The notes below the pieces were generated by a model. It worked only from the letters and a program-made list of their open reading frames with translations. It was not told the DNA's origin and made no database searches. Below, in pieces: positions 478 through 29,354 of a DNA stretch of 32,969 nucleotides. The number at the start of each line of letters is the position of its first letter. The stretch's first letter is position 1. A program made the position numbers and the translations under genes. Source of the stretch: Acidimicrobiia bacterium (GTDB lineage: Bacteria; Actinomycetota; Acidimicrobiia; Spongiisociales; JAHEDJ01); NCBI GenBank assembly GCA_029210695.1, contig JARGFH010000043.1, forward strand, positions 1-32,969. Direction: 5' to 3'.

Positions 478-3400
478 CTACTCGCCCTCGGTTGTTGGGA
501 CGATACGGATCTTGTCGGCGGCGTCCTTGGCGACGAGGTCTTCTACAAATTTCTCGAACCGTTCGCCAAGTTCGGCGACCGTGGTTGGAGTCTTCTCGGG
601 AAAGAGCGCCTTCCACAGCTCGCCGGAGTTGACCGGGCGAACAACGAAACGTCCGAAAACAAGGTTGATCGCCTGAACAAGTGCCGTGTCGACAGGGGTT
701 GGAAGCGTCTCGGAATCGAGTAACTTCTTCACTGCCTTGGCGTCGCCTGAGTCGAGCAGGTCAATCTGAGCCGACATCTCATCAGTTCGTAGGTTGTCGA
801 GGAGGGTCCGACGCCACTCGTCAAACAGGGCGTTGACCTCGTCTGCAATGGCATTGACAGCGGCCAATGCGGTGGGTCCGGTCGATGGTTTCGGTCGGTA
901 CTTACAGTCCGGGCAGATCACCGACTGTTTGAGATTGTCCTCGTTGAACGTCTTGCAAACCCCGATCGAAACAAGGCGTTCACGAATCGAACCGAAGGCG
1001 CCATCGGGGAGGATGGAAACGACCGAGAGCGTTTCGAGATCCCGCATGGCGTCTCCTTGGACGATCTGGCGTTTCCGCTCGTCGCCCGCCCCATCGAGAC
1101 GATCTCGGGCATGGGCTTGAGCGGCTTCGTCAGAGAATCGGCGACTCAACGCTTTCGCGCCAGTGTTGAGCTTGGCCACTGCGGCGTTGTCGATTTCGCC
1201 GCCTCCCTGGAACAGCTGCAACATTGAGGATCGCAACGCCTGGGCGTCGACGGTGAGAGCGTGATCGTCACCAAACACTTCCGCGGCCTCACGGAGATAC
1301 TCCACCGTTCCTGAGAGGTGCTCTCGGGCTCGAAAGGCAGAATCCAACCATTCGAGTTCCTCACGACCCTTCTTGGCGGTATCAAGCGTCTCGGGCGGAA
1401 GCTCGAGTCGGTTCATCTTGCCGACGGAGTTCCGTGCTTTGACATTCTCGAGCACTGACTGCAGGGCATTCAGCCGTTTCGTGCGAACATCAATCTGGTC
1501 GACGACGGAGGCCCCCCACAGCATTACCCCTTGGGCGAGCTTGGCCTGAGCATCGACGACCTGCTTGAGCATTTCGGCCTGATGCTGGAGAATCGCCTGG
1601 ACGCTCGCCTCGTTGACGCCTGTGGCGTGGACGATCCCCTCGGCGAGACCAAGGAGCTTGGCAACCTCTTTGAGGGTCACTTCTGGAATGCCCTTGGGAG
1701 GAGCCACGTGAGAAAAGCCGGAGACGTCGTCGAGCGACATCGACGTGAGGCGATCGAGGCCGAGTGCGTCGATCTGACCGCTCGAATAGCCGAGTTCCAA
1801 TCGACCCTGCTGAGTCAGGGCAGCGGCGACGACGGCCACCCAAGCGGGTTCGAGATGCCAGGTGCCCCAGGTGAACACGCCCCGGTCGCGCTCGGTGAGC
1901 AGGTCCTTGCGGTTCAGGACCTTGCCTCCGGCTTTCTTGACCGCGGATTCGAGGACGCCGGCATAGCTTCCAGAATTGGACAACGACTCGTCCGGGTCGA
2001 GTAGCTCGAGTGAACGCAGAATGGCTGTTCCAAGCTGGGTCTTGCTACCGGCGATCTGATTGAGCGCCTGCTTCACGCTCTCGCCTAGGTTCCCTTTGCC
2101 GATCGGGACGGAAACTTGAAAGGATGGGTATCCGGGATAGCGGACCGCGAAATGGTCGGCCAGAGCCGTTGATGCGATGGAGTCGAGTTGATCCTTCATC
2201 GACGCTCGCGGGCCGACTGCCGATCCGAGCCACGTGCCCAATGGGCGAGCATCGCCTTGGTGCGTCACCGTGAAGGCATCACGCATGTGGGCCCGGAGCC
2301 ACGACACCATGCCATGCAGCGCAGTCCGTCCTTTGTCTTCGTAAATGCTGCGTCGCTCGCCGGAGGCGGTCTCCGCTGCGAGAGCCGTGGCACCGGCGTA
2401 TGTGCGGAGCTTGGCGGTGAACTCCTCATCGGGCTTGTCGAAGTGGAAGAACACTTCGTCAGGCTTTGCCTCATCCTTGAACTTCGGTGGGTCGTATGGC
2501 TGGAGGAAATAGACGTAATAGTCGCGGGGTGGCTGGGCAGTCGACCGCTCGTTCGGTGCACCCATGAAGAGGTAGCCGATGCGCATGACGTTCTTATCGA
2601 TCCACGGAAGCTCGTACTCCCAGATCCGGTAGCCCGAAACATAAGGCGCGTCGCGTAGACCGAGCAGTTCTTCGAGTGCCCGGTAGTAGGCCTCGTCGAG
2701 CTTCGCCGTGTCGAGCGAGTTAGCGCGCTCGCCAATCAGTTGGTCGTAGTCGATGTCCTTCTTGACATCGAGGTAGACCTGGCCGTTCTCCTCGTTCTCT
2801 GAGATGAACTGCCCGCTGACCGCCCGGATGATTTCAGCGATGACCGAATCGACCGTCGTTTCGAGAAAGAAGGCGTCGAGTTCGGGCAGTCCGTCTGGAA
2901 AGAGGCACAGGTCGTCCCTGAGTTCCGCCTTGGTGGGTCCAAGTGGGACATAAACATCGCCGGTTGTGAGCCGATGGACGGTGAGGGCGTCGATGATCTG
3001 CAAGGCGATCGGTTTGTACCGGGGCGTGGCCAGGGCGCCTTCGACCCGGTTTCGCAGCTTGTTCGAGACGTCAAGCACGGTGCGGACTTCATCGACGGCG
3101 TGAAAGCTCGGGTCGTCCGACATGCGCAGCCGGTAGCTGTCGTAGGTTACGAGCCCCGGACGATCATCGGGTACCTCATTGTCGAGCATGCTGCCAATCT
3201 CGCGGGACAGCGTCTTGAGGATCTCGCGTTTCTCGATCACGGTGAGCTGCTCGAAGACCTCGAGATATGCGGGATGAACCGGGAAGAGGTCGACGAAACG
3301 GTCGAGGTTCTCAGCCATACCTTCGTAGAGCGGGGTGAACTGCTGAAGATGATCCTTGATGGTGGTCCGCTGGTCTACGGTCTTCTTGAGAAGCCGCGCT

Positions 3401-27704: not shown

Positions 27705-27851
27705 TCAAGGGAACGACCCGTAGCCTCTGCCGGTGTCGGCCGCCGTGGAACGCTGCTCGAGGTGTTGACTACGAAGCAGGTCGAGCATCTCTTCGATCGT
27801 TCTTTTCAGCCACGTCGGCGTGGCGCGCCCTAGTACGCCTGACGGTGACAT
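27705..27851 (-). CDS. Possible 48-residue helical peptide gene, doubtful
   Basis: An ATG at 27851 lies within the last codons of the Cys/His-rich mini-protein gene, in another frame, and reads 48 residues. A basic/hydrophobic stretch (TPTWLKRTIEEMLDLLRSQ, about 11-29) would form an amphipathic helix. No ribosome-binding site is convincing. It could be a third, coupled gene of the minus-strand module or chance. Confidence 0.2.
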   Translation of the reverse strand: MSPSGVLGRATPTWLKRTIEEMLDLLRSQHLEQRSTAADTGRGYGSFP

Positions 27852-28054
27852 GGGCAGGCAAGGCTGTCTTTCGCCTTCCAATGAGAACAGTGCCCGTCGG
27901 TTGGATCCCAGTAGTTGCACCGTCCGCCGTTCATGGCCTTCTTAGAAACATGTCCCGGTGGGTTCCAAGGCGTGTGTTTCGGGCAGGTCTTGCGTGGGCC
28001 GCGTCCTTTCGTCTTCGGCGGTTTGATGTACTTGCGAGCCTCTTCAAAAGGCAT
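27830..28054 (-). CDS. Cys/His-rich mini-protein of unknown function
   Basis: The 74-residue product begins MPFEEARKYIKPPKTK with a basic region, then carries Cys24, His27, His35, Cys46, His55, Cys56, His58, Cys67, Cys69 and His70. This is enough for one or two zinc sites. I do not recognise the family. An AGGAGG ribosome-binding site ends seven bases before ATG 28054, which strongly supports this start and the reality of the gene. A longer version from GTG 28093 would include the hairpin sequence as codons and is less likely. The gene lies 89 nt downstream of the HTH gene on the same strand, beside a tyrosine recombinase, so it probably belongs to the same mobile module. The ribosome-binding site is buried in a hairpin (28055-28082). 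Confidence 0.6.
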   Translation of the reverse strand: MPFEEARKYIKPPKTKGRGPRKTCPKHTPWNPPGHVSKKAMNGGRCNYWDPTDGHCSHWKAKDSLACPCHRQAY

Positions 28055-28082
28055 TGAGTGCCTCCTCTCGAGAAGGCACTCA
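28055..28082 (-). promoter_or_regulatory. Hairpin that would hide the ribosome-binding site of the mini-protein gene
   Basis: On the minus strand TGAGTGCCTTCT, loop CGAG, AGGAGGCACTCA forms a 12-bp stem with one G-T pair, and the very next bases are the ATG at 28054. The whole AGGAGG lies in the 3' arm. In the transcript this would block translation unless melted, by a translating ribosome, a protein or temperature. The same symmetry could instead be a DNA operator. Confidence 0.6.
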
Positions 28083-28143
28083 ACGGCGCTCACCTGTTAT
28101 GTGTACAACGTATCACGGAAGCCGTACCGGGTCCGAGCATTGC

Positions 28144-28347
28144 TTACGGGAGGCGGCCGGTGATCTTCGCCCACTTCTCGATGTCCGGCCAATACCAGAT
28201 CAGCGCGCTCTGGAGTTGGGCGACCGGCAGTGGAAAATCGGCGTGTCGCCGCCGCCAGGTATGAACTACCTGAGCGCGAGCCACGCCGAGGCGCTCAGCG
28301 ATTTCCGAAGCCCCAACCAAGAGCTCACTGTCTACGCGCCGACCCAT
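28144..28347 (-). CDS. Small AlpA/MerR-like helix-turn-helix protein
   Basis: The 67-residue protein has LVGASEIAERLGVARAQVVH (10-29), a winged helix-turn-helix recognition unit as in AlpA/excisionase-like proteins. RRRHADFPLPVAQ (32-44) and ALIWYWPDIEKWAKITGR (48-65) follow, the usual wing and closing helix. Proteins like this act as excisionases or repressors of integrases in small mobile elements. Start ATG 28347 has no strong ribosome-binding site. It diverges from the tyrosine recombinase at 28442, and a perfect 14-bp inverted repeat (28387-28428) lies between them, a likely target. The Cys/His mini-protein gene is downstream. Confidence 0.75.
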   Translation of the reverse strand: MGRRVDSELLVGASEIAERLGVARAQVVHTWRRRHADFPLPVAQLQSALIWYWPDIEKWAKITGRLP

Positions 28348-28386
28348 GGGGACAATCTACCAACGGCTGCTGCACGCCCGGTGTGA

Positions 28387-28428
28387 TTACGTCTGTACTC
28401 GCCTGTGGTAGACTGAGTACAGACGTAA
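28387..28428. promoter_or_regulatory. Perfect 14-bp inverted repeat in the HTH/integrase divergent promoter region
   Basis: TTACGTCTGTACTC (28387-28400) and GAGTACAGACGTAA (28415-28428) are exact complements around a 14-base spacer. TAGACT at 28409-28414, inside the spacer, is a possible -10 box for the recombinase gene, with TTACGT 16 bases upstream as a weak -35. The repeat ends 13 bases before the recombinase start, so a bound dimer would block transcription. It may be the operator of the neighbouring HTH protein or the recombinase core site. Confidence 0.6.
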
Positions 28429-28441
28429 CCAGACGAAATCC

Positions 28442-29059
28442 ATGGAGATGAGCGCCACAAGGATCCCCGCCAACAAGGGCAAGAGATACCCGACCGAAGT
28501 GTTGACGCCGGACGAGGTCCGAGCTCTGATCCGCGCATGCCCCGACGACACGCCCGTCGGCCTACGAAACCGGGCTCTCATCGCGCTGTTCTATCGCACC
28601 GGCCTGCAGTGCGCCGAGGCGCTCGCCCTCAGACAGAAGGACATCGATCGCGTAATCGGAAGTGTGACGGTTCTTTCCGGGAAGGGCGGACGCAGGCGGA
28701 CCGTCGGAATCGATCCGGGAGCGTTCAAGGTCATCGATGAGTGGCTCGACACGCGCCGTGAGTTGGGCATCGACTCAGTGGCTCCGCTGTTCTGCAGCAT
28801 GGAGGGGCGAAGGCTCTCGGGCTCGTATGTCCGAATGCTGCTCCCTCGTTTGGCCCGTGATGCCGGGATCGAGAAGAGAGTTCACGCTCATGGCCTCCGT
28901 CACACCCATGCCTTCGAACTTCTGATGGAGGGCATCGAGATTCCGGTCATCCAAAGACAACTCGGCCACCTGTCGCTGCAGACCACGGACACCTATTTGT
29001 CGCACATTGCTCCGCGCGATGTCATCCGGCGGATCAACGAACGAAGCTGGTCGCTCTAG
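28442..29059 (+). CDS. Tyrosine recombinase, catalytic domain only, first catalytic Arg replaced by Gln
   Basis: The 205-residue protein matches the catalytic domain of phage-integrase family recombinases: Lys81 in SGKGGRRR, His150 and Arg153 in HGLRH, His176 in LGHLS and Tyr185 in TDTYLSH. The first active-site Arg, usually in TGLRxSE, is Gln56 here (TGLQCAE, codon CAG). The N-terminal SAM-like core-binding domain is missing; the protein starts about 20 residues before the catalytic fold. It may bind DNA weakly or act with a partner, or be inactive. ATG 28442 and 28448 are both possible starts; no clear ribosome-binding site precedes either. A 14-bp inverted repeat lies just upstream and a tRNA T-arm-like sequence just downstream. 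Reading frame and C-terminus are intact, so it is not an obvious fossil. Confidence 0.85.
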   Translation: MEMSATRIPANKGKRYPTEVLTPDEVRALIRACPDDTPVGLRNRALIALFYRTGLQCAEALALRQKDIDRVIGSVTVLSGKGGRRRTVGIDPGAFKVIDEWLDTRRELGIDSVAPLFCSMEGRRLSGSYVRMLLPRLARDAGIEKRVHAHGLRHTHAFELLMEGIEIPVIQRQLGHLSLQTTDTYLSHIAPRDVIRRINERSWSL

Positions 29060-29122
29060 ATTCGAGGCTTCGAACCTCCGACCACCCGACCGGTCGCTCG
29101 GTCTGGCGGTCTGGTGGTCGCC
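29060..29122. repeat. tRNA T-arm-like sequence and four tandem octamers after the recombinase
   Basis: GAGGCTTCGAACCTC (29064-29078) has the form of the complement of a tRNA T-arm (GG-TTCGAAG-CC with four pairs). No complete tRNA can be folded around it. Then come four tandem octamers: CGGTCGCT, CGGTCTGG, CGGTCTGG, TGGTCGCC (29091-29122). CGACCACC (29079-29086) and GGTGGTCG (29113-29120) form an outer stem. The position at the recombinase 3' end suits an attachment site; this is unproven. Confidence 0.4.
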
Positions 29123-29161
29123 TAGTCCGACATTGCGGCGTGCGTTCGATCCGTTGGTCAT

Positions 29162-29354
29162 GCATGGGGTACCAGCCGTGTATGGGGTCGGTATCGATTC
29201 ACTTCCGGCCGGGCCCATCTGGCCCCCTCGCCTCGAGGACTCGGTACTCCTCCCACTCCTGGGGGGAGAGACTTGGGTTCGTCCATGGGGTTATCCCGGT
29301 CCATGGGGTGCGACTCAGCCGGAAATGCCATGGGGTCACCTAGTGCCATGGGGT
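29162..29354. repeat. Six ATGGGGT motifs at spacings of 18 or 27 bases
   Basis: The nonamers begin at 29162, 29180, 29283, 29301, 29328 and 29346; the last four are exactly CCATGGGGT. Spacings are 18, then 103, then 18, 27 and 18. No gene is credible in this stretch. Open frames on both strands here show only the repeat's own periodicity. Confidence 0.55.

Follow-up and report, generated by a model that had tools for sequence, protein, structure and literature searches.

The core sites of tyrosine recombinases are made of inverted arms around a spacer of 6–8 bp, and an integrase-type gene placed under a small divergent regulator is a known and ordinary kind of switch. BldC of Streptomyces is a developmental regulator, and to our knowledge it is not a neighbour of integrases. 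Closer to the subject of this article, phage 186 Apl is a small regulator from a mobile element, with binding sites between promoters and a second function in recombination (PMC7498355), while RdfS of ICEMlSym-R7A, a winged helix-turn-helix (HTH) protein, acts at the integrase promoter and attP (PMC11963761). On the enzymatic side, Cre in which the catalytic Arg-I is replaced by lysine is described as giving no detectable products and the Flp equivalent as practically inactive in recombination, and mutants lacking Arg-I have been studied with the help of a DNA modification that rescues them (PMC4499138); in the IntCTnDOT group, some integrases use a substitute arginine (PMC8138268). Here we describe a locus from an Acidimicrobiia bacterium, located in a window that is one whole contig (JARGFH010000043.1, 32,969 nucleotides) of a 3.9 Mb genome. 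It holds an inverted repeat that probably represents the operators of a small HTH protein controlling the intergenic region between its own gene and that of a recombinase. A limited search of open-licence PMC papers found no description of this combination of regulator and operator.

The two flanking genes are as the initial annotation had described them, a 67-aa HTH open reading frame (ORF) on the reverse strand and a 205-aa tyrosine recombinase ORF on the forward strand. Its exact 14-bp inverted repeat between these divergent genes is likewise real, with arms that are exact reverse complements of each other around a 14-bp spacer:

28144-28347, reverse strand: gene of the 67-aa winged-HTH regulator, proposed binder of O1 and O2 (see below; ORF, profiles, model)
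28387-28400, forward strand: left arm of the exact 14-bp inverted repeat, TTACGTCTGTACTC (sequence, repeat search, shuffles)
28415-28428, reverse strand: right arm of the exact 14-bp inverted repeat, GAGTACAGACGTAA (sequence, repeat search, shuffles)
28442-29059, forward strand: gene of the 205-aa tyrosine recombinase, catalytic domain only (PF00589, E 2.4e-34)

The repeat can be extended to 20-nt arms at 90% (28381-28400 / 28415-28434), and it is the sole exact inverted repeat in the window with arms of at least 14 bp and a spacer of at most 50 bp. Dinucleotide-preserving shuffles of the window (200 in all) gave a mean of 0.01 such repeats and never more than one; the repeat is beyond chance. 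Further copies of the arm, which the initial annotation had suggested looking for, did not turn up: a genome search at 0–1 mismatches returned nothing besides the window's own, and at two mismatches there were three others, against nine for a reversed control pattern.

Each arm lies inside an 18-bp quasi-palindrome of the form nGnnTAC-N4-GTAnnCn, and these two elements, together with the candidate promoters around them, make up the intergenic layout:

28354-28362, reverse strand: proposed extended −10 of the HTH gene, TGG-TAGATT (sequence, G003; start inferred)
28384-28401, no strand assigned: proposed operator O1, TGATTAC-GTCT-GTACTCG, 18 bp, 5/7 pairs (sequence; putative function)
28406-28414, forward strand: proposed extended −10 of the recombinase gene, TGG-TAGACT (counterpart in G003; missed by a consensus scan)
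28414-28431, no strand assigned: proposed operator O2, TGAGTAC-AGAC-GTAACCA, 18 bp, 5/7 pairs (sequence; putative function)

The centre of O1 lies 45 bp upstream of the HTH ATG, and the site spans the expected −35 region of the recombinase promoter; O2, centred 75 bp upstream of the same ATG, spans the last −10 base and the expected start of the recombinase transcript. Read on the HTH strand, the sites are CGAGTAC-AGAC-GTAATCA centred at −45 and TGGTTAC-GTCT-GTACTCA centred at −75 from the HTH ATG, and they stand 30 bp apart, centre to centre. Between them runs GCCTGTGGTAGACT, which holds the recombinase TGG-TAGACT, with TAGACT at 28409-28414 and the TG ahead of it at 28406-28407. This is the "possible −10 box" seen earlier in the spacer, now a candidate with a counterpart in the congener G003; because a simple sigma-70 scan of 28300-28500 gave no promoter passing its rule, the recombinase −10 rests on that counterpart in one congener. 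On the other strand, the HTH ATG follows TAGATT by 6 nt in the window and by 7 nt in G003, and follows TAGGGT by 6 nt in a second congener, G002. With the −10 only 6 nt before the ATG, a leaderless HTH transcript is suggested, its start point being read from the sequence. Two binding-site-like palindromes are thus found to overlap the predicted promoter between the divergent regulator and recombinase genes. Since scores of 5/7 pairs, taken singly, are common, the case for the window rests on the exact duplication of the sites.

Which of the two neighbours owns the element? The genes were treated as competing owners, and the upstream regions of their relatives were compared. The HTH set comprises 22 homologous loci (tblastn E <1e-15; L001, L002, L003, and L047 dropped as duplicates) and covers the loci that were fetched, more distant ones having been just viewed or left unused; L160, below the cut and hence outside the 22, has such sites upstream by eye. 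A subset of 19 loci, those other than the window, G003, and G002, comes from 16 genomes of other genera. Within 130 bp upstream (87 bp in the case of L146), palindromes with a gap of 4 and at least 6/7 pairs occur at 16 of these 19 loci, against 3.4 expected (100 shuffles: mean 3.4 loci, maximum 10). Gap 4 outscores every other gap from 0 to 12; gaps 0, 2, and 6 carry some of the signal too, and the counts for odd gaps remain close to expectation, which is the pattern of true palindromes. Among the sites are TGCGTAC-GTTC-GTACGCA (L155), TGCATAG-TTAT-CTATGCA (L143), and TGAGTAC-GGCT-ATACTCA (L144), the last beside an HTH protein 71% identical to that of the window.

The recombinase set (at least 40% identity over more than 120 residues, duplicates removed by the first 120 residues) holds 88 proteins including that of the window. 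HTH linkage was seen for three of them; of the remaining 85, 80 offer 100 bp or more of upstream sequence, and for these, "no HTH found" refers to the flanks as fetched, which are short in some cases. In 26 of these 80 upstreams there is a gap-4 palindrome with 6/7 pairs or more, against 15.9 expected, with a comparable excess at other even gaps. The core TACN4GTA is present in 7/22 HTH upstreams vs. 1/80 recombinase upstreams, and by eye many close recombinase relatives without the HTH have another motif in common upstream, of the type GGTCTGGAATCGG...GTGTCGTACGGTGTC. The 16 genomes that carry the 19 HTH loci all fall outside the 15 of 395 genomes with a close recombinase relative. Because gap-4 palindromes are enriched upstream of HTH genes and the core TACN4GTA is nearly absent at the recombinase relatives with no HTH found, the element goes with the HTH: as judged from upstream sequences, the type of site follows the regulator family rather than the recombinase. 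Twin sites, on the other hand, were rejected as a family-wide rule. A further half-site copy is found in 12 of the 22 HTH loci, within the range of shuffles (mean 9.0, maximum 15), and the duplication is therefore claimed for the window and, imperfectly, G003 alone.

The 67-aa protein itself gives a confident AlphaFold2 model of a winged HTH (helix-helix-strand-strand-helix, pLDDT 91.3). Its best folds in Foldseek are excisionase, RacA, MtaN, and BldC, none at E ≤0.001, with the excisionases 2kvv and 8dgl among the nearest (E 0.047 and weaker; 0.19 for 8dgl). When curated-model cut-offs were applied to the window HTH, one of the 22 members, four Pfam families and one NCBIfam family were seen, all below cut-off. 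All 22 members match a PHROG named DNA binding protein, and 20/22 one named excisionase and transcriptional regulator. A PDB profile search gave weak matches such as the AlpA-family excisionase 8c3t (E 0.019); a match to a designed protein (E 9.1e-6) was taken as chance. The HTH family is present in 26 of the 395 genomes of the class. A PF00589 gene lies within 3 kb of 8 out of 26 HTH places (the places, out of 34 HTH rows, lying in the 19 genomes searched for PF00589), five of the eight being divergent, and 18 have none, several of them near contig ends; with about eight such genes per genome, the chance estimate is well under one. By eye, the divergent ORF at some other HTH loci resembles an excisionase or integrase. 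Viral contigs contain 16 HTH relatives and 18 recombinase relatives. A recurring hairpin-like GGCCCCGGGGTG...CACCGCCGGGGCC precedes the divergent gene at L143, L146, L165, L167, L177, L178, L182, and L195.

The predicted recognition helix corresponds to residues 26-34, and two of its residues vary together with the half-site: residue 30 goes with base 3 and residue 27 with base 4. Permutation gave p 0.003 and 0.004, respectively, for the 14 loci with TA in a half-site of their best site, and 0.016 and 0.025 for the full set of 22. These pairings are two of 371 tests, residue 30 being sixth by z with the lowest p among the 20 listed, and the statistics ignore kinship within a small set in which some sites, such as that of L150, are doubtful. 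The residue-to-base link is suggestive at this stage.

A recombinase of near full length and at least 59% identity occurs in 7 of 59 genomes, the window's own included, and the divergent HTH accompanies it in three of the seven: the window, G003, and G002. In a fourth, G047, the contig ends before an HTH could be seen. That locus, L004, lies outside the 80 upstreams above, its contig ending about 115 bp upstream of the match; palindromic sites are nevertheless seen there by eye (~2098-2211, reverse strand), where TGCGT...ACGCA sites flank GTATAGT and resemble those of the HTH locus L160. In G003 the HTH gene, both sites, the −10, and the recombinase gene follow in unchanged order; the place of the −10 is taken by GCCTGTGATAGAAT, with TGA-TAGAAT, and the flanking sites are imperfect, at 5/7 and 4/7 pairs. 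G002 has the HTH and recombinase genes with a single perfect TGCATAC-ATGT-GTATGCA between them, near TATGAT. The block shared with G003 is 1.3 kb long (27873-29191, 71.6% nucleotide identity) and embraces, besides the two genes and the repeat, one more small ORF:

27830-28054, reverse strand: 74-aa Cys-rich ORF downstream of the HTH gene, in the shared block (ORF, G003)

The Cys-rich ORF adjoins the HTH gene in G003 as well and was not seen in the fetched G002 flank; its protein has no relatives among the viral contigs. The cyclase gene beside the window recombinase has 88–90% orthologues in G002 and G003, which do not lie next to the recombinase there: the G003 cyclase match ends at a contig end, and the G003 recombinase contig continues for 8.9 kb past the block without a cyclase. 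For the peptidase gene on the opposite side, six genomes gave no close match of full length. The surroundings of the block thus vary from congener to congener, as would those of a mobile or relocated module. No element boundaries could be defined from the comparison of window and congeners, and neither a tRNA gene nor an attachment site was found in the window.

Several other features of the block and its relatives deserve mention. Upstream of the Cys-rich ORF, a 14-bp stem (28054-28083, reverse strand) covers a Shine-Dalgarno-like GGAGG and reaches the A of the ATG; the 90-nt RNA there has a folding z of −3.9, and G003 retains the stem, both bases of one pair being changed. This is a possible translation switch. 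After the recombinase gene, 29164-29354 contains three ATGGGGT pairs with an 18-bp period within each pair, and two such pairs follow the G003 recombinase, the first of them at matching offsets. In 59 genomes, paired ATGGGGT was found only at the places in the window and G003 and once on G000:C96; these pairs are possible binding or attachment sites. Finally, five recombinase relatives (L128, L137, and L140-L142) lie on one strand within 8 kb of one contig (G273:C246:9050-17048).

Most of the recombinase's named relatives with at least 60% identity carry the label Acidimicrobiia or Actinomycetes, the closest being L047, on a metagenome-assembled (MAG) contig of bacterium isolate Ww198 (81%). 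K81, H150, R153, H176, and Y185 are present, and the full RKHRH pentad plus Tyr nucleophile is missing one member, Arg-I being Gln56 in the assembled sequence:

28607-28609, forward strand: codon of Gln56, at the position of catalytic Arg-I (sequence, alignment)

This position is Arg in 85 of 88 aligned proteins (the G003 enzyme likewise has Arg-I), and the other two non-Arg cases are L123, a partial match, and L124, which has Cys. The window protein departs alone at P65Q and P149A too, that is, at three of the 80 columns that are fixed in the other six orthologues. By the same comparison, other orthologues depart at 0 to 9 columns. With so few fixed columns changed, there is no sign of general decay. 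The window recombinase has likely lost activity, and the substitute arginine of some integrases makes this loss likely rather than certain.

How might the locus work? The initial annotation had proposed either an HTH-controlled switch for the recombinase or a recombination core. The former has gained ground as far as the sites are concerned, for gap-4 palindromes accompany the HTH family and two copies bracket the −10, an arrangement imperfectly kept in G003; the control itself stands as a proposal. The 67-aa winged HTH, as a dimer or as two facing monomers, would bind each 18-bp quasi-palindrome with its 4-bp centre. Because each site is nearly symmetric, two opposite copies resemble one long inverted repeat. 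With O1 over the −35 region and O2 over the −10 end and the start, occupancy of both would block the recombinase promoter from either side of the −10 and keep the recombinase off, and binding at O1 could feed back on the HTH's own promoter, 45 bp upstream of its ATG. Overlap of the sites with the promoter itself makes repression the likelier sign; we infer, then, that the HTH binds O1 and O2 and most likely represses the recombinase gene.

The same sites could instead belong to an HTH that serves mainly as an excisionase-type accessory, a directionality factor for an attachment region beside the integrase gene, and that controls the promoter secondarily or not at all. Such a role would suit the 20 of 22 members matching the PHROG named excisionase and transcriptional regulator, as well as the excisionases 2kvv and 8dgl among the nearest folds (E 0.047 and weaker), and both jobs are combined in Apl (PMC7498355) and RdfS (PMC11963761). 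However, Apl-type sites are described as direct repeats one helix turn apart (PMC7498355), whereas the palindrome scan points here to palindromes with an even 4-bp centre. Moreover, the sites bracket a −10, the window revealed neither attachment site nor tRNA gene, and the 3 kb around 18 of the 26 HTH places are free of PF00589 genes. We accord this role a small chance. A recombination core, in which the arms would bind the tyrosine recombinase and the 14-bp spacer would be the crossover of an inverting or integration site, is very improbable. An exact inverted repeat directly upstream of a recombinase gene invites the idea, as do the conserved K81, H150, R153, H176, and Y185; but the spacer has 14 bp rather than 6–8, the arm has no other copy in the genome at 0–1 mismatches, and, where no HTH was found, recombinase relatives lack TACN4GTA in 79 of 80 upstreams. 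In addition, the spacer contains the −10 and matches G003 over most of its length, that element included, while the flanking G003 sites are imperfect. Arg-I is Gln, though a substitute arginine serves one class of integrases (PMC8138268). The crossover site, and with it the invertible spacer of the initial annotation, was rejected on spacing, copy number, the near absence of the motif at recombinase relatives, and Gln at Arg-I.

Operators of another host regulator acting on both genes would also explain the sites, whose tie to the 67-aa HTH is one of sequence association. Yet HTH homologues in other genera come with palindromes built alike but with different half-sites, and an arm without further genome copies is unlike the site of a many-target regulator; there is little to recommend this reading. 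An RNA hairpin or terminator is the faintest prospect of all. RNA of 28380-28445 would fold strongly from either strand (z −4.8 and −6.7), but no terminator-like site occurs in 28300-28500, with the proposed starts neither transcript would contain more than part of the repeat, and the perfect pairing is lost in G003.

With the sites read as operators of the divergent HTH, the repeat gives this family of small regulators an operator assignment that is specific and can be tested, and the claim of an invertible switch is removed for this locus. Should the residue-to-base link hold, one could predict from sequence what other members target; the family is little curated, and the pattern of site recognition across its members is possibly useful. 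A bolder scheme, on which we would place little weight, has a widespread ~67-aa winged-HTH family, unclaimed by curated models in the one member compared with cut-offs, reading TGnnTAC-N4-GTAnnCA by a simple code in which residues 27 and 30 specify bases 4 and 3, respectively, and repressing many integrase modules on its own, the window recombinase without Arg-I now being a DNA-binding partner and not an enzyme.

Set against known systems, the recombinase has two sorts of counterpart. Like simple Xer-like tyrosine recombinases (PMC8138268), it has a catalytic domain that matches the XerC, XerD, and XerA models (131–134 bits), but it has no core-binding domain, falls far below the cut-offs (134 vs. 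335 for XerC), and carries Gln at Arg-I. It shares with FimB/FimE-like invertases (NF007371, NF007370) a size of ~200 aa and the presence of the catalytic domain only, but scores 62.3 vs. a cut-off of 222 bits and 56.3 vs. 221; here again Arg-I is Gln, and no invertible segment was found at the window locus. As for the regulator, BldC is a winged HTH of similar size and also actinobacterial (PMC11963761; Foldseek 6ama/6amk), but is reported to bind direct repeats head-to-tail (PMC11963761). RdfS (8dgl) is near the window model in fold, with 11% identity over the match and E 0.19 in Foldseek; unlike the window HTH, it is described as having no clear binding motif and an extra N-terminal helix, and as forming filaments (PMC11963761). 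Lastly, Apl resembles the window HTH as a small regulator acting between promoters, but its sites are reported to be direct repeats bound with low sequence specificity (PMC7498355), in contrast to the sequence-specific palindromes with a 4-bp centre seen here. The additional role in recombination is Apl's, whereas for the window HTH it is promoter control that is proposed.
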